Positions 31,650-50,580 of a DNA stretch of 64,000 nucleotides are shown in pieces. The number at the start of each line of letters is the position of its first letter. Positions within the stretch are counted from its first letter, which is position 1. The translations under genes were made by a program, and so were the position numbers. Under the pieces are notes generated by a model. The model ran no database searches and was not told the origin of the DNA. It was given only the letters and a program-made list of their open reading frames with translations. The DNA is from Nocardia tengchongensis (GTDB lineage Bacteria > Actinomycetota > Actinomycetes > Mycobacteriales > Mycobacteriaceae): assembly GCF_018362975.1 (NCBI RefSeq), contig NZ_CP074371.1, positions 1,984,001-2,048,000 on the forward strand, in the 5' to 3' direction.

Positions 31650-31660
31650 TCAACCGACCG

Positions 31661-31688
31661 GTTCGCGGCCCGGCGAGGGGCCGCGAAC
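31661..31688 (+). terminator. Hairpin after the DUF6918-like gene
   Basis: An 11-bp perfect stem (GTTCGCGGCCC at 31661-31671, complement at 31678-31688) around GGCGAG. The same stem sequence forms the outer arms of the 120-bp repeats at 43109 and 49575, so this may be a relative of that element. Confidence 0.7.
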
Positions 31689-31698
31689 AGGTCAGTGT

Positions 31699-42385: not shown

Positions 42386-43099
42386 TCAGCCCAGCTTGTA
42401 GCCGCGGTGCAGGGCCACGATGCCGCCGGTGAGATTGCGCCACCGCACCGAGGACCAGCCCGCGTCGGCGATCCGCATGGCCAGCTGCGGCTGGTTCGGC
42501 CAGGCCCGGATGGACTCGGCCAGGTAGACGTAGGCGTCCGGATTGGAGCTGACCGTGGTGGCCAGCTTCGGCAGCGCCTTCATCAGGTACTCCATGTACA
42601 CGGTCCGGAACGGCGCGAAGGTCGGGGTGGAGAACTCGGCCACCACCAGCCGGCCACCGGGCTTGGTGACCCGCAGCATCTCGCGTAGCGCCAGGTCCGG
42701 GTCGGACACATTGCGCAGACCGTAGGAGATGGTCACCGCGTCGAAGGAGTCGTCGGCGAAGGGCAGGGCCATGGCGTCGCCCGCCACCATCGGCACGTTC
42801 CGCCAGCGTCCGGCCGAGAGCATGCCCTGGGAGAAGTCGGCGGCCAGGCACCAGGCCCCCGATTTGGCCAGCTCCACCGTCGAAACACCGGTTCCGGCCG
42901 CCAGATCGAGCACCCGCTCACCGGGACGCAGCGCCAGCGACTTGCGCGTCACCGACCGCCAGTAGCGGTCGATGCCGCCGGTCATCACCGTGTTGGTGAT
43001 GTCGTACCGCTTGGCCACCCCGTCGAACATGGACGCGACTTCATTCGGCTGCTTGTCCAGCTGGGCCCGAAACGACTCCCGCTGCCTGATTTTCGCCAC
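42386..43099 (-). CDS. menG: Demethylmenaquinone methyltransferase
   Basis: MenG adds the last methyl group to form menaquinone. The 237-residue SAM enzyme shows the UbiE/MenG pattern: [40 protein letters not shown] (SAM loop), and a late signature [23 protein letters not shown] start at 43099. The region directly upstream is one copy of the 120-bp repeat, so the 5' untranslated region is made of that element. Confidence 0.95.
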
Positions 43100-43108
43100 G
43101 GTGTTTAT

Positions 43109-43228
43109 TTTGCCCTCCGCTTCGCTCCGGGCGGGTTCGCGGCCCTGGAGGTCTCGTTCTTCCCTCCCTCCGCTCCTCCGCTTCGCTCCCCCGCTCCACT
43201 CAGTCCAGAACGAGACGGGCCGCGAACC
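43109..43228 (-). repeat. 120-bp inverted repeat element, copy A (leader of menG)
   Basis: On the minus strand this 120-base sequence matches the plus-strand copy at 49575-49694 at 119 of 120 positions. It begins GGTTCGCGGCCC and ends GGAGGGCAAA, nine bases before the menG GTG. The outer parts fold back: GGTTCGCGGCCC-GTCTCGTTCT pairs with the second half except for a 5-base bulge. The loop is purine-rich, and GGAGCGAAGCGGAGG occurs twice. Confidence 0.92.
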
Positions 43229-43251
43229 TTCGGGTGAATGGCCGGGACTGC

Positions 43252-43746
43252 CTATCGTCGGAGCCTAGTTCGCACGCGGGTCCGTAGTGCGCCGAGCCAC
43301 CGCGTCGGTGGCGAGCCGCAGAGCCAGAGCGCGGGGATGGCGATGGCCCAGGAGACCACGATGACCGACAGCGCGGGAATGATGGCGACACGCGCATCGC
43401 GACCCGCCACACGCACCAGATCGGGATCGCTGCGCCGGTATTCGACGTTGATGCGTTCGCCGACGGTCAATTTGGTCGGGTACAGCACGCCGGTCTTCGG
43501 ATTGTGGGTCTCGCCGTCGGGCGTGACGAAGATGACCGCGGACCGCAGGGTGCCGGCCGACAGCACTTCCGCGCTGGTCACGCCCCGATCGGCATTGATG
43601 AGATGGTCGTCGCGCCAGGCCGCGAGCACCAGCAGCACGGCCAGGAAGCTGACCGAGGCGGCCGTGATGACGATCCCGAGCCGAGCCCGCCGCCACCGAA
43701 CCGCCTGCCGCTGTTCAGTCCTGGGAGACTGGCTAGTTTCCGACAC
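43252..43746 (-). CDS. DUF3592-type membrane protein
   Basis: The 164-residue protein has a membrane helix near each end ([40 protein letters not shown]) and a small domain between them outside the membrane ([40 protein letters not shown]). This is the DUF3592 layout. Ends are basic (TRVRTRLRR), so both termini are probably cytoplasmic. Function unknown. Confidence 0.82.
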
Positions 43747-43785
43747 TTCAGCAGGCTATTCCATCGCTGGGCTACGGTCTTCGCC

Positions 43786-44289
43786 ATGTCCCGAAAATTC
43801 AGCTTCACCGTGCAGTACAGCATCCCGGTCGAAGAGCTTCACCGGGCACTCACCAATGACGAGATGTGGCAGTCCCGCTTCGCCGAGGCGAGCACCGCCA
43901 CGCTGGAGCTCACCCACCCGGACGGGCCCGGCACCATCCAGATCCAGATGACCGAGAAGGCCCCCGAGGACCAGATTCCCGGCATCGTCAAGAAGGTCCT
44001 CAAGAGCGATCTCATGCTCGAGCGCACCGACGTCTGGGGCCCGCTGGCCGACGGCGTCGCGCAGGGCAGCTTCAACGGCCGCTCCGGCGGCATCACCACC
44101 GAGATGGCGGGCGCGTTCGAATTGCGGCCCACCGCCAAAGGTTCCGAGATCGAGGCCACCGGCACCGTCGACGTGAAGGTCCCGCTGGTCGGCGGGGCCA
44201 TCGAACCGCTGGTCGAGAACCTGCTCAAGAAGGTCATGAACAGCGAACGCAAGTCCGTCGAATCCTGGTTCGCCGCACAGAACGCCTGA
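43786..44289 (+). CDS. DUF2505 protein
   Basis: A 167-residue soluble protein of the START-like DUF2505 group: FSFTVQYSIPVEELHRALTN, MWQSRFAEASTATLELTHPD, and a C-terminal amphipathic region (VGGAIEPLVENLLKKVMNSE). The ATG at 43786 is 39 bases from the divergent DUF3592 gene's start. Such proteins are common in mycolata; a lipid-binding role is a guess from the fold. Confidence 0.82.
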   Translation: MSRKFSFTVQYSIPVEELHRALTNDEMWQSRFAEASTATLELTHPDGPGTIQIQMTEKAPEDQIPGIVKKVLKSDLMLERTDVWGPLADGVAQGSFNGRSGGITTEMAGAFELRPTAKGSEIEATGTVDVKVPLVGGAIEPLVENLLKKVMNSERKSVESWFAAQNA

Positions 44290-44350
44290 TCCCGGGAGCG
44301 TGGATGTGGGGGTGGTCCCGCATCCACGCTCGGGTCGGCGGAGCCGTTGG

Positions 44351-44776
44351 TCAGGGCCGGAATTCGCGCGGCTCGGTCAGCACCAGCCAGTTGCCGGAGT
44401 TGTCGCGGATGATGGCCTCCACGCCGTAGGGCCGCTCCGACGGCGGCTGCACGAACTCCACGCCCTTGGCGGTGAGCTCGTCGAAAGTCTTCTGGCAGTT
44501 GTCGGTTCGCAGCCCCAGCGACCCGTGCGTGCCGTTGGCCATGGACCGGCGGATGGCCTCGGCCAGGTTGTCGTCCAGCGGGGGCCCGGGAATCATCAGC
44601 GTGACCTCCAGCTCCGGATGATCCGGATGCGCCACGGTCACCCACCGGAAGCCGTTGTCGCCCATGGTGACATCGCTGCCCTCCACGAAACCCAGCTTGT
44701 CGATGTACCAGGCCTTGGCGGCCGACTGGTCCGTCACGTAGACGGTCACGAGCGAGACATTGGTGATGGTCGTCAT
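44351..44776 (-). CDS. VOC (glyoxalase-like) family protein
   Basis: The 141-residue protein has the VOC repeat pattern: NVSLVTVYVTDQSAAKAWYI, DKLGFVEGSDVTMGDNGFRW, and a second module around KTFDELTAKGVEFVQPPSER ending in IIRDNSGNWLVLTEPREF. Ile-Met-rich hydrophobic strands between the two suggest one compact domain. It could be a metal-dependent lyase or an antibiotic-binding protein; no substrate can be told. It is convergent with the DUF2505 gene. Confidence 0.88.
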   Translation of the reverse strand: MTTITNVSLVTVYVTDQSAAKAWYIDKLGFVEGSDVTMGDNGFRWVTVAHPDHPELEVTLMIPGPPLDDNLAEAIRRSMANGTHGSLGLRTDNCQKTFDELTAKGVEFVQPPSERPYGVEAIIRDNSGNWLVLTEPREFRP

Positions 44777-44978
44777 GTCTTTCAGGCTAGGGACGCCGAC
44801 CCGCCGCGAGCTTCTCCGAAATTGCTCGATTCACGCCCGGATAGCTGAGTTCACACGCTCGGAACCTCGGTGAGGCTGACGTAACAGACGCGCAATGGCT
44901 CGGAAAGCCATGATCAACATTCACTGACCACTCTCGAATCGGAAAACAGCTCGCGACGAGCCCGAACGAGGAGTGCCG

Positions 44979-46622
44979 GTGGTTCAAGTAGAAGCCCCGA
45001 CGGCCAACGCGGTCGCCGCGTCCAAGGAGACGCTGGAGGATTACACGCTGCGGTTCGCGCCCCGCAGCTACCGCAAGTGGAGTCCGGCGGTGGTCGGCGT
45101 CTCGGCCCTCGGCGGCATCGCCTACCTGGCCGACTTCTCCATCGGCGCGAACATCGGCATCGCCAACGGCACCGGCAACGCGCTGCTGGGCATCGGCATC
45201 TTCGCCGTCGTGGTCATGCTGACCGGCTTCCCGCTGGCCTACTACGCCGCGCGCTACAACATCGACCTGGACCTGATCACCCGCGGCAGCGGCTTCGGGT
45301 ACTACGGGTCGGTGGTGACGAACATCGTGTTCGCCTCCTTCACCTTCATTTTCTTCGCGCTCGAGGGCTCGATCATGGCGCAGGGCCTGAAACTCGGCCT
45401 GCACGTGCCACTTCCGCTCGGCTACCTGGTGTCCACGGTGATGATCTTCCCGCTGGTCATCTACGGCATGAACACCCTGGCCAAACTGCAGGTGTGGACC
45501 ACCCCGCTGTGGCTGGTGCTGATGGTGCTGCCGTTCGGCTTCCTGCTGGTGCGCCACCCCGACTCGGTCGGCACCTTCCTGTCCTACGGCGGCCAGGACG
45601 GCAAGGGCGTCAGCTTGTCGGGCGCGCTGCTCGCCGCCGGCGTCTGCCTCTCGCTCATCGCCCAGATCGCCGAACAGATCGACTACCTGCGCTTCATGCC
45701 GCCCCGCACCCCGGACAACGCCCGCCGCTGGTGGGGCTGGATGCTGCTGGCCGGACCCGGCTGGGTGCTGTTCGGCGCGATCAAGCAGGTCGTCGGCCTG
45801 TTCCTGGCGGTCTACCTGATCGCGAGCCTGCCCGGCGCGCAGGACATCGCCAACCAGCCGGTGCACCAGTTCCTGGAGATCTACCGCGACATGATGCCGG
45901 CCTGGCTGGCCATGACCCTGGCCGTGGCGCTCGTGGTCATCAGCCAGATCAAAATCAATGTGACCAACGCGTATTCGGGTTCGCTGGCGTGGACCAACTC
46001 CTTCACCCGCGTCACCAAGACCTACCCGGGCCGGCTGGTGTTCCTGGGCCTGAACCTGGCCATCGCGCTGATCCTGATGGAAGCCAACATGTTCGACTTC
46101 CTCAACAACATCCTCGGCTTCTACGCCAACTGCGGCATCGCCTGGATCGTCACCGTCGCAACCGATATCGCGGTCAACAAGTACGTGCTGAAGCTCTCGC
46201 CCAAGGAGCCGGAGTTCCGGCGCGGCATGCTCTACGACTTCAACCCGGTCGGCCTGGTCGGTTTCGGCCTGTCGGCGGTGCTGTCGATCATGACCTTCTT
46301 CGGCCTCTTCGGTGACACCCTGAAGCCGTACTCGCCCATCGTGGCCGTGGTGGTCTCGTTCCTGGCCACCCCGGCGACCGCCGTCCTCACCAAGGGCAAG
46401 TACTACCTGCGCCGCGACCACGACGGCATCGAACTGGACATGTTCGACGAGCACGGCAACCCGTCGGGGGAGACCCTCACCTGCGCGGTCACCGGCATGG
46501 AGTTCGAGCGCCCCGACATGATCGCCTCCGCGGTTCCCGGACCCGAGGGCGAGATCCAGTACATCAGCTCGCTGGCCCTGTCCACCGACAAGACCGGCAT
46601 CCACGTGCTGCCACCGAAGTAG
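44979..46622 (+). CDS. NCS1-family purine/cytosine permease
   Basis: The 547-residue transporter has about twelve helices. Its N-terminal part EDYTLRFAPRSYRKWSPAVV runs into the first helix (SALGGIAYLADFSIGANIGI), and the family region IAQIAEQIDYLRFMPPRTPD is present. The C-terminal ~90 residues are a charged cytoplasmic tail. The GTG at 44979 is preferred because GAGGAG lies five bases before it. NCS1 proteins take up nucleobases, hydantoins or allantoin with cations; the substrate here is unknown. It is convergent with the AraC-type gene. Confidence 0.88.
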   Translation: MVQVEAPTANAVAASKETLEDYTLRFAPRSYRKWSPAVVGVSALGGIAYLADFSIGANIGIANGTGNALLGIGIFAVVVMLTGFPLAYYAARYNIDLDLITRGSGFGYYGSVVTNIVFASFTFIFFALEGSIMAQGLKLGLHVPLPLGYLVSTVMIFPLVIYGMNTLAKLQVWTTPLWLVLMVLPFGFLLVRHPDSVGTFLSYGGQDGKGVSLSGALLAAGVCLSLIAQIAEQIDYLRFMPPRTPDNARRWWGWMLLAGPGWVLFGAIKQVVGLFLAVYLIASLPGAQDIANQPVHQFLEIYRDMMPAWLAMTLAVALVVISQIKINVTNAYSGSLAWTNSFTRVTKTYPGRLVFLGLNLAIALILMEANMFDFLNNILGFYANCGIAWIVTVATDIAVNKYVLKLSPKEPEFRRGMLYDFNPVGLVGFGLSAVLSIMTFFGLFGDTLKPYSPIVAVVVSFLATPATAVLTKGKYYLRRDHDGIELDMFDEHGNPSGETLTCAVTGMEFERPDMIASAVPGPEGEIQYISSLALSTDKTGIHVLPPK

Positions 46623-46625
46623 CTG

Positions 46626-47045
46626 CTAGCCAGGCGGTTTCCGATCCGAGAGACCGTGCATGAAGACGTAGCAACCCGGGATATGGGGTGCGCCCTCGGC
46701 CGCGAATTTCGCTTGATACTCCGAGGGCGACATCCCGACCAGGTCGGTGAACTTACGGCTGAACGAGCCCAGACTGCTGTAGCCGACCAGCATGCAGGCC
46801 TCGGTCACCGTGACATTGGTGGCGCGCAACAGATCCTGCGCCCGCTCGATGCGGCGCTCGGCCAGATACAGGGCGGGCGTCTTGCCGTAGGTGGCGGCGA
46901 AACACCGCAGGAAGTGGTACTTCGACACCCCCGCGGCCGCCGCCAGCGCGCCCAGATCCAGCGGTTCCGCGTAATTCCGGTCGGCCAGATCCCGCGCTCG
47001 CCGCAGATGCGGCAGTAGCTCCTCGGGAACCGGCCGCTCGGTCAT
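46626..47045 (-). CDS. AraC-family DNA-binding protein, minimal form
   Basis: The 139-residue protein is little more than an AraC/XylS double helix-turn-helix: DLGALAAAAGVSKYHFLRCF, TYGKTPALYLAERRIERAQD, LLRATNVTVTEACMLVGYSS, LGSFSRKFTDLVGMSPSEYQ. There is no effector domain, as in MarA/SoxS-like members. Its ATG overlaps the menJ stop by four bases, so it is made as part of the menJ transcript. The targets cannot be told; the neighbouring permease is convergent. Confidence 0.9.
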   Translation of the reverse strand: MTERPVPEELLPHLRRARDLADRNYAEPLDLGALAAAAGVSKYHFLRCFAATYGKTPALYLAERRIERAQDLLRATNVTVTEACMLVGYSSLGSFSRKFTDLVGMSPSEYQAKFAAEGAPHIPGCYVFMHGLSDRKPPG

Positions 47046-48316
47046 GCGAACGGCTGGATCTTGTCGGCCCGCATCGAGGCCCGGCCCGCACCCCGCCACA
47101 GCCGGGCGGTCAGATCCAGATCCTCGTCGGTGACCAGATTGCCCATCACCCGGACCGCGGTGCGCTGCAACAGCTTCGACCGCATCAGCGGCGGCCCGCC
47201 CAGCGGCACCGTGCGCGGATGGGTGGCCAGCGCCGCCAGCCGCCGCGCCACCGAATAGGTGCGGCCGTAGCGTTCCCGCAGCAGCTCCGGCCAGCTGTGG
47301 GTGAGATCGGGCTGGTCCAGCAGGCCGGCCAGCATGTGCCCGCCCTCCAGGCCGTAGTCGATGCCCTCGCCGTTGAGCGGGTTCACGCAGCCCGCGGCGT
47401 CACCGACCAGCGCCCAGTTGCGGCCCGCCAGATTCGAGACCGCGCCGCCCATCGGCAGCAGCGCCGACGCCACCGCCCGCGCCTCGCCCTCGAAACCCCA
47501 TTCCGCGCGGCGCTGGGAAACGTAGTGCTGCAACAGCGGTTTCAACGCGATATGCGAGGGCCGCTTTTCGGTGGCCAGCGAACCGACCCCGATATTCACC
47601 TCGCCATTGCCGAGCGGGAACACCCAGCCGTAGCCGGGAATCAATTCGTTCTGCGCATCACGCAATTCCAGATGTGAGGTGATCCACTCGTCGGCACTGC
47701 GCTCGGACTTGATGTACGCCCGCGCCGCCGTCCCGTACGCGTACTGCCGATGCCAGGTCCGGCCCACCATCTTCCCGACGGGGGAGCGCACGCCGTCGGC
47801 CACGATCAGCATCCGGCACGACACCGCCCGCAGGTCGGCGTCGGTCTTGATCGTCACCCCGGTCACCCGGTCACCCTCGCGGGCCACCTCCACCACCTTG
47901 GCGCCGTCCACCATCCGGGCCCCCGACTTCACCGCGGTCTCGCGCAGTTTGTCGTCGAGTTCGGTTCGCGGAACAGCACTTCCGTAGCTGGGGAAGGACC
48001 CTTCGGGCCAGGGCAGCAGGGCCTCGCGCCCGAATCCGGCCATCCGCAGCCCGCGATTGACCGTGTGCGCCCGCACCCAGTCGCCGAGCCCCAGATGCTC
48101 GAGTTCGGCGGTGGCCCGCGGGGTCAGTCCGTCGCCGCAGGTCTTGTCTCGCGGGAACAGCGCGGAGTCGGTCAGCAGTACGTCACGGCCCGCCCGGGCC
48201 GCCCACGCGGCCGCCGCGGAGCCCGCCGGACCAGCCCCGACGACCAAAATATCGGCGTGTGCCGGCAGAACATCCGACGATTTCCCCTGCTCGGGCGCGA
48301 CTTCCGGTGAACCCAT
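47042..48316 (-). CDS. menJ: Geranylgeranyl-reductase-family flavoprotein, menaquinone side-chain reductase
   Basis: MenJ saturates the second isoprene unit of the menaquinone side chain in mycobacteria (Rv0561c). The 424-residue FAD protein shows ADILVVGAGPAGSAAAAWAA (dinucleotide fold), DKTCGDGLTPRATAELEHLG, and the second FAD motif NWALVGDAAGCVNPLNGEGI. It lies divergent to grcC1, which makes the polyprenyl chain, the same order as in M. tuberculosis. Assignment as MenJ rests on family and synteny. Confidence 0.88.
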   Translation of the reverse strand: MGSPEVAPEQGKSSDVLPAHADILVVGAGPAGSAAAAWAARAGRDVLLTDSALFPRDKTCGDGLTPRATAELEHLGLGDWVRAHTVNRGLRMAGFGREALLPWPEGSFPSYGSAVPRTELDDKLRETAVKSGARMVDGAKVVEVAREGDRVTGVTIKTDADLRAVSCRMLIVADGVRSPVGKMVGRTWHRQYAYGTAARAYIKSERSADEWITSHLELRDAQNELIPGYGWVFPLGNGEVNIGVGSLATEKRPSHIALKPLLQHYVSQRRAEWGFEGEARAVASALLPMGGAVSNLAGRNWALVGDAAGCVNPLNGEGIDYGLEGGHMLAGLLDQPDLTHSWPELLRERYGRTYSVARRLAALATHPRTVPLGGPPLMRSKLLQRTAVRVMGNLVTDEDLDLTARLWRGAGRASMRADKIQPFA

Positions 48317-48494
48317 GCGACCAATACTCGCAGCACATCACCGCGTGTGCCTATTCACCCCGCGCTACATCACAGGCGTTTCGATTCGCGTGGCGGCTGT
48401 TTCGTTGGTCGCACTACGGTGGTGTCCATAGGGGGTTATCGACGCACACGCTAGGTTCTTTGGCGTGGGGTCGGACGCGGCACTGGGAGAAGAA

Positions 48495-49517
48495 ATGAGC
48501 GCATCAGCTGTGAGCGATGAGAGCACCGTGGTCGCGGGGGTGGATCTCGGTGATCCCGAGCTCGCCGCCACAGTGCGCAAGGGCCTGATCGAAGTCGAGG
48601 ACCTGCTCATCACCGAGCTGTCCGACGGCGAGGAGTTCCTGCAGGAAGCGGCGCTGCACCTGGCCAAGGCCGGCGGCAAGCGCTTCCGCCCGCTGTTCAC
48701 CATCCTCACCGGTCAGCTCGGACCCGACCCGACCAGCCCCGACCTGGTCGTTGCCGGCACCGTGGTGGAGCTCGTGCACCTGGCCACCCTGTACCACGAC
48801 GACGTCATGGACGAGGCGTCCATGCGGCGCGGGGCGCCCAGCGTGAACTCCCGCTGGGGCAACAGCGTCGCCATCCTGGCGGGCGACTACCTGTTCGCGC
48901 ACGCCTCCCGCCTGGTGTCCACGCTCGGACCCGACGCGGTCCGGATCATCGCCGAGACCTTCGCCGAACTGGTCACCGGCCAGATGCGGGAAACCATCGG
49001 CGCCCGGCAGTCCCAGGACCCGGTCGAGCACTACCTGCGCGTGGTGTGGGAGAAGACCGGCTCGCTGATCGCGGCCGCCGGCCGCTTCGGCGGCACCTTC
49101 TCCGGCGCCGGCCTCGACCACGTGGAGCGGCTGGCCCGCCTCGGCGACGCCGTGGGCACCGCCTTCCAGATCGCCGACGACATCATCGACATCTCCTCGG
49201 CGTCCGAGCAGTCCGGCAAGACCCCGGGCACCGACCTGCGCGAGGGCGTGCACACCCTGCCGGTCCTCTACGCCCTGCGCGAGGAGGGTTCCGAGGGCGA
49301 CCGGCTGCGCAAGCTGCTGGCCACCCCGCCGCAGACCGACGCCGCCGTCGACGAGGCCCTGTACCTGCTGTCCCGCTCGCGCGGCCTGGTGCTGGCCAAG
49401 GAGAAGCTGCACGGCTACGCCGACATCGCGCACGCCGAACTCTCCGCGCTGCCCGGCGGCCCGGCCAACGACGCCCTCGAACAGCTGGTCCGCTACACCA
49501 TCGAACGCGTCGGCTGA
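48495..49517 (+). CDS. grcC1: Polyprenyl diphosphate synthase
   Basis: The 340-residue all-trans prenyltransferase makes the long isoprenoid chain used by MenA. The first aspartate-rich motif is LVHLATLYHDDVMDEASMRR and the second is QIADDIIDISSASEQSGKTP; the GGKRFRP motif (AGGKRFRPLFTILTG) binds isopentenyl diphosphate. The ATG at 48495 (MSASAVSDEST) has GGGAGA just upstream; a GTG at 48465 is possible. The counterpart beside menJ in M. tuberculosis is GrcC1 (Rv0562). Confidence 0.92.
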   Translation: MSASAVSDESTVVAGVDLGDPELAATVRKGLIEVEDLLITELSDGEEFLQEAALHLAKAGGKRFRPLFTILTGQLGPDPTSPDLVVAGTVVELVHLATLYHDDVMDEASMRRGAPSVNSRWGNSVAILAGDYLFAHASRLVSTLGPDAVRIIAETFAELVTGQMRETIGARQSQDPVEHYLRVVWEKTGSLIAAAGRFGGTFSGAGLDHVERLARLGDAVGTAFQIADDIIDISSASEQSGKTPGTDLREGVHTLPVLYALREEGSEGDRLRKLLATPPQTDAAVDEALYLLSRSRGLVLAKEKLHGYADIAHAELSALPGGPANDALEQLVRYTIERVG

Positions 49518-49574
49518 CGGTCCCGGGGGAACCGCTCGGCGAGCTTTATCGTTGACCTGATGTAACGACCTGGT

Positions 49575-49694
49575 GGTTCGCGGCCCGTCTCGTTCTGGAC
49601 TGAGCGGAGCGGGGGAGCGAAGCGGAGGAGCGGAGGGAGGGAAGAACGAGACCTCCAGGGCCGCGAACCCGCCCGGAGCGAAGCGGAGGGCAAA
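49575..49694 (+). repeat. 120-bp inverted repeat element, copy B (leader of htpX)
   Basis: This plus-strand copy matches the reverse complement of 43109-43228 at 119 of 120 positions (the only difference is C at 49605 against T). It ends one base before the htpX ATG. Its last bases GCGGAGGGCAAA supply the GGAGG ribosome-binding site, six bases from the ATG. Outer arms GGTTCGCGGCCC-GTCTCGTTCT (49575-49596) pair with about 49643-49669; GGAGCGAAGCGGAGG is repeated at 49614 and 49675. Confidence 0.93.
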
Positions 49695-49695
49695 T

Positions 49696-50580
49696 ATGCA
49701 CAGCCACGGGTATGCGAACGGGTTGAAGACGTTCGGTCTGCTCGTCGGGATGTCGGCCTTGATCGTGTTCGTGGGGGCGCTGTTCCGCAGCCCCACGATC
49801 CTGATCCTGTCGATCGTGCTGGCCGTGGGCATGAACGCCTACGCCTACTTCAACAGCGACAAGCTCGCGTTGAAGGCCATGCACGCGCAGCCGGTGACGG
49901 AGCTGGAAGCGCCCGCCATGTACCGCATCGTGCGCGAACTGGCCACGGCCGCCCGCCAGCCCATGCCGCGGCTCTACATCAGCCCCACCAACGCGCCCAA
50001 TGCCTTTGCCACCGGCCGTAATCCGCGCAATGCCGCGGTCTGCTGCACCACCGGCATCCTGCAGATCCTCGACGAGCGGGAACTGCGCGCGGTGCTGGGT
50101 CACGAGCTGTCCCACGTCTACAACCGCGACATCCTGATCTCGTCGGTCGCCGGCGCGCTGGCCTCGGTCATCTCGGGTCTGGCGAACCTGGCCTTCTTCG
50201 CGGGCGCCTTCGGCGGCGGCAACCGCAATGGCGAAGGCCCGAATGTCATTGCGATGCTGCTGGTTTCGCTGCTGGGACCGCTCGCCGCCTCGCTCATCAA
50301 ACTGGCCGTCTCGCGGTCGCGTGAGTACCAGGCCGACCAGGACGGCGCGGAACTCACCGGCGACCCCCTGGCCCTCGCCTCGGCCCTGCGCAAGCTGGAG
50401 CGTGGCACCCAGGCCGCCCCGCTGCCCCCCGAGCCGCAGCTGACCGCCCAGTCGCACCTGATGATCGCCAACCCCTTCCGGGCCGGCGACAAGATGGCCC
50501 GCTGGTTCTCCACCCACCCCCCGATGGCGGACCGTATCGCCCGCCTCGAGGAGATGGCCGGTGGGAACCGGAACTACTAG
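49696..50580 (+). CDS. htpX: Membrane zinc metalloprotease HtpX
   Basis: HtpX removes damaged membrane proteins. The 294-residue protein has two N-terminal helices, the zinc motif [13 protein letters not shown] (HExxH), two further helices and the third-ligand region [20 protein letters not shown] (Glu). The ATG at 49696 directly follows the 120-bp repeat, which provides its ribosome site. Order grcC1-htpX is as in M. tuberculosis (Rv0562-Rv0563). It is convergent with the yajQ gene, with no gap. Confidence 0.95.

Follow-up and report, generated by a model that had tools for sequence, protein, structure and literature searches.

A probable mobile structured repeat upstream of htpX and menG in Nocardia tengchongensis

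The window, a stretch of 64,000 nucleotides from the Nocardia tengchongensis chromosome (NZ_CP074371.1, positions 1,984,001 to 2,048,000), carries two inverted copies of one sequence, upstream of menG and of htpX. As the earlier note had it, the blocks at 43109-43228 (minus) and 49575-49694 (plus) agree at 119 of 120 positions, with a sole mismatch at 49605. Each block ends within 0-9 bases of a start codon, as also claimed: the htpX ATG at 49696 begins 1 nt beyond it and the menG GTG at 43099 lies 9 nt beyond. The core word GGAGCGAAGCGGAGG occurs four times in the window at no more than one mismatch, where shuffles lead one to expect 0.03. The GGAGG before htpX is present and supplied by the repeat, while that of the menG-side copy lies 14 nt from the GTG. 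The identity holds over 120 bp, but the conserved element is longer: conservation and tandem junctions delimit it from a CACC-like left end to an ACACNG right end. The right-end CAC of the htpX copy (copy B) overlaps codon 2 of the gene. The features are as follows.

42386..43099, minus: menG, demethylmenaquinone methyltransferase (NCBIfam NF001241, 405 bits, cut-off 327)
~43101..43236, minus: element copy A, upstream of menG, with left end CACCC and right end AAACAC (CM R1, 150.2 bits)
43112..43132, minus: hairpin 2 of copy A
43262..43267, minus: TAGGCT, putative menG -10, the element now lying between this box and the GTG
49528..49553, plus: putative htpX promoter GGAAC-N17-CGTT, just 5′ of the element (a similar stretch recurs in many element-less relatives)
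~49567..49701, plus: element copy B, upstream of htpX (CM R1, 149.7 bits, and family comparison; left end weakly defined)
49575..49586, plus: hairpin 1 outer stem, 5′ arm, pairing with 49658-49669 (covariation)
49587..49596, plus: hairpin 1 inner stem, 5′ arm, pairing with 49643-49652 (covariation)
49597..49642, plus: purine-rich apical loop, starting GGACTGA and holding GCGAAGC at 49617-49623
49643..49652, plus: hairpin 1 inner stem, 3′ arm
49653..49657, plus: one-sided 5-nt bulge CTCCA
49658..49669, plus: hairpin 1 outer stem, 3′ arm
49671..49691, plus: hairpin 2 (proposed), GCCC-GGA-GC-GAA-GC-GGA-GGGC, with the GGAGG ribosome site in its 3′ strand
49696..50580, plus: htpX, zinc metalloprotease HtpX (NCBIfam NF002839, 502.9 bits, cut-off 412)

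The GGAAC-N17-CGTT sequence before htpX is a putative promoter of the ECF type, and in many relatives a TAnnnT-like box can be discerned by eye about 6 nt before the menG GTG.

The long stem with a 5-base bulge described in the earlier note consists of 12 bp and 10 bp separated by CTCCA on the 3′ side. The 15-base direct repeat that the note placed inside one loop does exist, but only one of its copies lies in the big loop (at 49614); the other falls outside, in hairpin 2 (at 49675). When covariation of the stem is modelled, as had been proposed, hairpin 1 proves conserved with strong covariation. Among 30 copies, pairing is intact in 97.6% of cells and 21 of the 30 pairs have double-sided changes; the covariation score is 0.424, against 0.123 for shuffles and at most 0.066 for slid controls. 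The stem mismatches include 39 G.T/T.G and 6 A.C/C.A cells, a single pair type making up 26 of the 39; another 142 G.A/G.G cells in the stem alignment are taken to reflect shifted register where the stem ends. Hairpin 2 varies in stem length and keeps its pairing, with few variable pairs. It contains the GGAGG in most copies, altered in some to GTAGG, GAAGG or GCAGG. GNA triloops cap the second hairpin in 131 of 143 copies and the mini-hairpin of the big loop in 130 of them, and all four middle bases occur. Such loops on G-C stems are described in PMC4686876 as very stable, nuclease-resistant DNA mini-hairpins. A single-stranded DNA energy model favours neither hairpin 2 (z -0.02) nor the big-loop mini-hairpin (z +1.7), though it may leave GNA loops uncredited. 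The predicted stability of the element (z -1.8 as RNA, -1.4 as DNA) is unremarkable for such GC-rich sequence; the evidence for the fold is its covariation.

The two window copies belong to an abundant family. The 8.0-Mb genome holds 28 strong CM matches, or 33 blastn matches with fragments included; matches occur in 102 of 118 genomes of the genus, and 6 of the 31 genera sampled across the taxonomic family have them. Copies at unrelated loci of one genome are about 98-99% alike. The 143 copies analysed leave out one cut-off match of 144 (L221 1-118), and the context table covers 130 of them, 13 having been dropped because their flanks were short or because another unit of the array followed them; those taken from other genomes were chosen for high scores among the matches listed and are no random sample. 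Some copies form head-to-tail arrays, the tightest of which (L261 and L263) have a single common CAC at the junction; in the remaining arrays, successive units are separated by spacers or solo hairpins. Searching the N. tengchongensis genome with the hairpin-2 pattern (up to 3 mismatches) returned 47 matches, comprising the known copies, three consisting of hairpin 2 only, and weaker matches. In all three hairpin-2-only copies the right end is retained and the 5′ part is missing, and no larger relative with hairpin 2 was seen among the pattern matches inspected. At the level of literature listings on Nocardia and Rhodococcus repeats, no description of the family was found, and a word search of the main text of the REP survey PMC12306157 returned neither genus.

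The earlier note suggested a mobile or duplicated sequence, and this is well supported by the many near-identical copies and their variable presence at orthologous genes. The element is absent directly before htpX in 44 relatives' loci, directly before menG in at least 33 Nocardia loci, and from 4 orthologous sites of mutY and 11 of glmS. Since the relatives examined lack it at all four genes, the element moves or has moved. Two of the 44 htpX loci, L098 and L139, have weak matches nearby on the other strand. Joined-flank searches gave element-less orthologous sites with flanks too diverged or replaced for a clean empty site or a target duplication to be read; at the htpX site about 35 nt are lost or replaced. 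CAC stands at the left end in 56 of 137 copies against a background of 27, a modest enrichment. The idea that recombination between the inverted copies flips the 6.3 kb between them found no example: the order menG- menJ- grcC+ htpX+ is preserved in 32 of 33 Nocardia loci that carry both genes, and in the 33rd htpX is involved in a different rearrangement. As the element was seen before both genes at none of these loci, this test of the flip is weak.

We regard the window copies as a mobile structured repeat and not a gene-specific switch, with a probability of roughly 0.8. In the best reading, the repeat is a non-autonomous palindromic mobile element of about 135-145 nt found in Nocardia and some related genera.

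Both window copies point towards their genes, as the earlier note had observed, in keeping with an orientation bias toward the downstream gene in Nocardia. By gene calling, the next gene is co-oriented for 27 of the 28 copies of the N. tengchongensis genome, or 26 once one RNase P neighbour is corrected, and for 78 of 92 copies outside genes in other Nocardia genomes (opposed for 14). Of 18 copies from other genera, 15 face an opposed gene. Judged by eye from positions along the N. tengchongensis chromosome alone, orientation shows no pattern of the kind a replication-strand rule would give. The exact start-codon placement remarked on for the two window copies does not hold generally: 9 of 27 co-oriented starts in this genome lie within 15 nt, the rest further, and distances from element to start vary widely. 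Positions within the intergenic gap do not depart significantly from uniform in this genome (n=25, KS p 0.17); over 97 Nocardia copies including these they are non-uniform (p 1.6e-6). At htpX and mutY the element sits directly at the start codon and supplies the GGAGG, and perhaps the start codon as well. The glmS copy lies upstream of a -10-like box, and some copies adjoin stop codons or the 3′ end of RNase P RNA. Seven of the 130 placed copies fall inside genes, using more than one frame, and at all seven loci a long frame in the sense direction runs through. Over the 143 copies, 386 of 429 antisense frames are open, against 247 of 429 sense frames.

How such an element would move is suggested by its layout. 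IS200/IS605 elements have end hairpins, short linkers and a short sequence common to the left flank and right end. The present repeat resembles these and REP elements in its hairpins near both ends (imperfect, conserved in structure, and strongest for hairpin 1), its short linkers, the sequence shared between left flank and right end, its head-to-tail arrays and the lack of visible target duplication. It differs in its strong transcription bias and in that the N. tengchongensis genome has no Y1_Tnp (PF01797) match (5 of 14 control genomes have one); only 19 of the 118 genus genomes have matches. Among the matches listed, these 19 have a median of 15 copies against 6 for the rest, a difference that is not significant (p 0.10). 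Of the 11 genomes with at least 30 listed copies, just 2 have Y1_Tnp. Near the 10 of 36 Y1 loci inspected there was one weak 16-bit match to the element and otherwise none. These figures neither demonstrate nor refute a link, and a Y1 transposase was not retained as the mobiliser. The repeat is also like classical MITEs in being short, dispersed and apparently non-autonomous, and unlike them in that its outermost ends (CACC on the left, ACACNG on the right) form no inverted repeat and no target duplication was read, although none of the sites was cleanly empty. Rickettsia palindromic elements, which PMC10969869 describes as palindromes of some 150 bp that recur at many loci and insert in frame into protein genes, share its palindromic nature, approximate size, multiple loci and in-frame gene insertions; the present element lies mostly outside genes, has no conserved peptide frame and occupies different hosts.

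Mobilisation through single-stranded DNA, to which we give somewhat less than even odds, would involve an enzyme that copies or moves the folded strand, recognises the hairpins together with the conserved flanks of the loop (GGACTGA...GGAAG), and makes its cut at CAC. A right end that often brings GGAGG and an A-rich spacer would make copies tolerable between promoter and start codon, and both window copies would thus serve as passive 5′ leaders of htpX and menG. Ordinary transposition gives no explanation of the transcription-aligned bias. Insertion itself could be polarised by transcription, an unlikely proposal in which the element, close to promoters and start sites, enters in sense into either the nascent transcript or the non-template strand displaced during transcription. 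Copies would then survive through their own ribosome site and start-codon context, each acting as a portable 5′ leader and, now and then, as a protein insert in frame.

Selection acting alone on random insertions is compatible with the mobile repeat and competes with transcription-polarised insertion; it is a sizeable minority possibility. Sense copies would survive because only the sense strand offers a ribosome site and a tolerable RNA, which accounts for the near-start copies at htpX and mutY without special targeting. It does not obviously explain the sense copy upstream of the -10-like box at glmS, nor the in-frame sense copies inside genes, given that the antisense strand has fewer stops.

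The sense bias, the sense frames through the seven in-gene loci (although antisense frames of the element are the more often open) and the three hairpin-2-only copies, truncated at the 5′ side with the right end retained, could also point to RNA-mediated mobility, in which an RNA copy would insert into or beside transcripts and then undergo reverse transcription. Copies facing opposed genes (14 of 92 outside genes in Nocardia, 15 of 18 in other genera) speak against it, and hairpin-2-only units in arrays equally resemble independent units; we consider it improbable.

Slightly less probable still is a cis-regulatory RNA that has spread before a set of genes to form a regulon and whose hairpin 2 would mask the GGAGG ribosome site. 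The strongly conserved structure, the sense orientation, the GGAGG inside hairpin 2 in most copies and the start-codon position at htpX and mutY are what such an RNA would show. The genes next to copies are, however, functionally unrelated, as had been remarked for menG and htpX, and the element is absent at the orthologous genes examined. Its position upstream of a -10-like box at glmS or beside stop codons and the RNase P RNA 3′ end, the mostly opposed genes in other genera and the altered GGAGG of some copies fit such a role poorly. No Rfam match lies within the element, and the RNA switch or thermosensor once proposed for menG and htpX is not upheld.

MIRUs, which according to PMC12548453 are apparently mobile and insert at start codons, likewise come from actinobacteria, and the similar orientation and the opening of copy B in frame with htpX recall their short ORF, whose translation is coupled to that of the gene following it. 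The orientation bias is shared in Nocardia, and placement at the start holds for part of the copies. In place of such an ORF, the present element shows covarying hairpins and, in many copies, a ribosome site of its own. Across 138 copies the open frames are not the same, and in only 29 does the main frame meet its first stop directly after hairpin 2. A coupled ORF was rejected for this lack of conserved reading frames, and a MIRU-type element is very improbable.

Small mobile repeats shape promoters and leaders in many bacteria, and the enzymes and placement rules behind them are often unknown. The mobile repeat described here is abundant, structurally well defined and strongly transcription-polarised in Nocardia, and the copies sampled from related genera differ in their placement. 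This contrast makes it directly testable whether orientation originates in insertion or in selection. The start regions of the housekeeping genes htpX, mutY, glmS and menG have been rebuilt by the repeat, which matters for annotation and promoter mapping.

The repeat upstream of menG and htpX is a two-hairpin element whose two copies in the window are inverted and identical at 119 of 120 positions.

43101..43236, minus strand: copy A, upstream of menG
49567..49701, plus strand: copy B, upstream of htpX
49573-49695: the part of copy B that reads open in the htpX frame from a GTG
31659-31690: short hairpin, GGTTCGCGGCCC-GGCGAG-GGGCCGCGAAC, with the outer-stem sequence of the element and a different remainder

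In both copies, hairpin 1 has an outer stem of 12 bp and an inner one of 10 bp around a purine-rich big loop; a 5-nt bulge lies on one side. A possible small hairpin 2 lies downstream (GCCC-GGA-GC-GAA-GC-GGA-GGGC). The 15-nt direct repeat that the earlier note had placed in the loop is present, with one copy there and the other in hairpin 2. Fold energy of the element is unremarkable as RNA (z -1.8) or DNA (z -1.4); taken alone as DNA, neither hairpin 2 (z -0.02) nor the big-loop mini-hairpin (z +1.7) gains any preference from the energy model. The short hairpin at 31659-31690 is not matched by the covariance model and is perhaps a terminator or a remnant.

The conserved feature of the element is its structure. 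Across 30 copies, mostly from different genomes and in an alignment fitted to the model and hence leaning towards it, 97.6% of cells are paired and 21 of 30 pairs changed on both sides; the covariation score of 0.424 compares with 0.123 after shuffling and no more than 0.066 after sliding. Covariation is also found in a MAFFT alignment of 16 copies from the N. tengchongensis genome made without model fitting (six double-changed pairs, 0/500 shuffles). Hairpin 1 gives the strongest signal (18/22 pairs, against 3/6 in hairpin 2), bearing out the fold proposed earlier, and one-sided G.U changes are few. Mismatches in hairpin 1 over 138 copies (39 G.T/T.G versus 6 A.C/C.A) favour the strand sense to the downstream gene as the one that folds, but 26 of the 39 belong to a single pair type, possibly inherited; the 142 cells with G.A or G.G probably reflect a shifted register where the stem ends. 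Triloops, located with a GC...GC pattern, are of the GNA type in 131 second hairpins and 130 big-loop mini-hairpins, out of 143 each. DNA mini-hairpins with a GNA loop and a G-C stem are described as very stable and nuclease-resistant (PMC4686876).

In the N. tengchongensis genome blastn gives 33 matches, and a covariance model trained on 16 copies gives 28 at E <= 1e-12 plus two weak ones. The model matches 102 of 118 genomes of the genus and, in a family-level sample of 31 genera, 29 of 201 genomes (12 Nocardia and 17 from five other genera). Elements from the other genera (L345-L364) are related, with differing stems and similar loop flanks and tail, and several lie between convergent genes. 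Among named Nocardia, N. acidivorans, N. acididurans, N. elegans, N. kruczakiae and N. nova carry copies in the gap between what we take to be menJ and grcC. No published description was found in the searches made of literature outside subscription journals.

Copies about 98-99% identical occur at unrelated places within one genome, which suggests recent activity; the earlier idea of a mobile or duplicated element holds. With array members included, 15 of 28 N. tengchongensis copies have their nearest relative in the sample within their own genome (19% by chance). Most copies do so in three other genomes (G073, 14/21; G072, 12/18; G001, 10/17), and fewer in a further three (G070, 3/7; G027, 1/14; G050, 0/6). 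The layout resembles that of IS200/IS605- or REP-type elements, which move as single-strand DNA. Their hallmark enzyme, the Y1 transposase (PF01797), has 0 matches in the N. tengchongensis genome; the element may therefore work like these types and is not assigned as a member. Y1 is matched in 19 of 118 genus genomes, which carry somewhat more copies, though not significantly so (median 15 versus 6 in the others, p 0.10; up to 30 candidates were scored per genome, making high values lower bounds). None of 10 inspected Y1 matches out of 36 had a good copy nearby.

Conservation reaches C-rich positions -7 to -4 on the left and about +13 (AAAWTAGACACNG) on the right. CAC is enriched in the right window (81/137, background 15) and more weakly in the left one (56/137, background 27). 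In the closest-packed arrays (L261, L263) consecutive units share a single CAC at their junction; in the remaining arrays they are set apart by spacers or lone hairpin-2 units. Three isolated copies in the N. tengchongensis genome consist of hairpin 2 only. A second-level insert of about 20-26 nt, of CGGCTTGATAGACCTCCGCCTTGG or CGGCTCCATAGACCTGCGCCTTGG type, occupies either of two big-loop positions in some copies (L021, L023, L025 and L026 in N. tengchongensis, L262 in G001), and one L262 copy seems to carry both.

The proposal of a 5' leader stands in part. By a simple codon-usage gene caller, the downstream gene is co-oriented with 27 of 28 N. tengchongensis copies; one of these (L042, 1062-1491) in fact borders the RNase P RNA gene, at its 3' end and antisense to it, which corrects the count to 26 of 28. 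Among 95 copies outside genes in other Nocardia, high-scoring picks rather than a random sample, 78 share the direction of the downstream gene, 14 oppose it and 3 are uncalled. Gaps with both neighbours in the same direction give sense:antisense ratios of 13:1 and 45:9, respectively. With approximate gene starts, copies in N. tengchongensis show no significant preference for one part of the gap (n=25, p 0.17), whereas a set of 97 copies is shifted towards the downstream gene (p 1.6e-6). Among 20 copies from other genera, 18 have a called downstream gene and 15 of these genes are opposed; same-direction gaps hold six antisense copies, four with similar downstream sequence, and one sense copy; a leader role is thus not family-wide. 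Nor is a switch or thermosensor supported, the downstream proteins being functionally unrelated (Pfam match in 19 of 20; MenG and HtpX identified by name in a separate scan).

Individual loci were compared by eye. Many relatives keep a GGAAC...CGTTGAC-like promoter and native ribosome site at htpX; in N. tengchongensis the promoter is kept and the element has taken the place of about 35 nt immediately preceding the ATG. An N-terminally extended HtpX starting at the GTG inside the element may be possible. Upstream of menG, a TAnnnT-like box stands about 6 nt from the GTG in many relatives, a spacing consistent with leaderless starts, and in N. tengchongensis the element lies between TAGGCT and the GTG. 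At mutY the element provides both GGAGG and ATG. At glmS a TAGGCT box near the ATG follows immediately after the element, which may therefore be untranscribed. Near grcC and a gene presumed from its end to be rplL in other species, its right end adjoins the stop codons of genes that run the opposite way.

Of 130 placed copies, seven are intragenic, each in a long sense frame, although open element frames are commoner antisense (386/429) than sense (247/429). In-frame copies in presumed NRPS-like genes, an assignment resting on motif, are L260, L263 and L264 (G001), L244 (G027) and L235 (G073); four sit at roughly one position, an adenylation-domain loop that precedes VFASGE, and add about 40 residues.

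The suggested flip of the segment between the two copies was not seen among 33 Nocardia loci, none having the element before both genes. In Nocardia sp. CC227C (L101), menG lies on the opposite side of htpX relative to the 32 other loci, a rearrangement that includes htpX. The element is a real, well-conserved two-hairpin repeat, apparently mobile.
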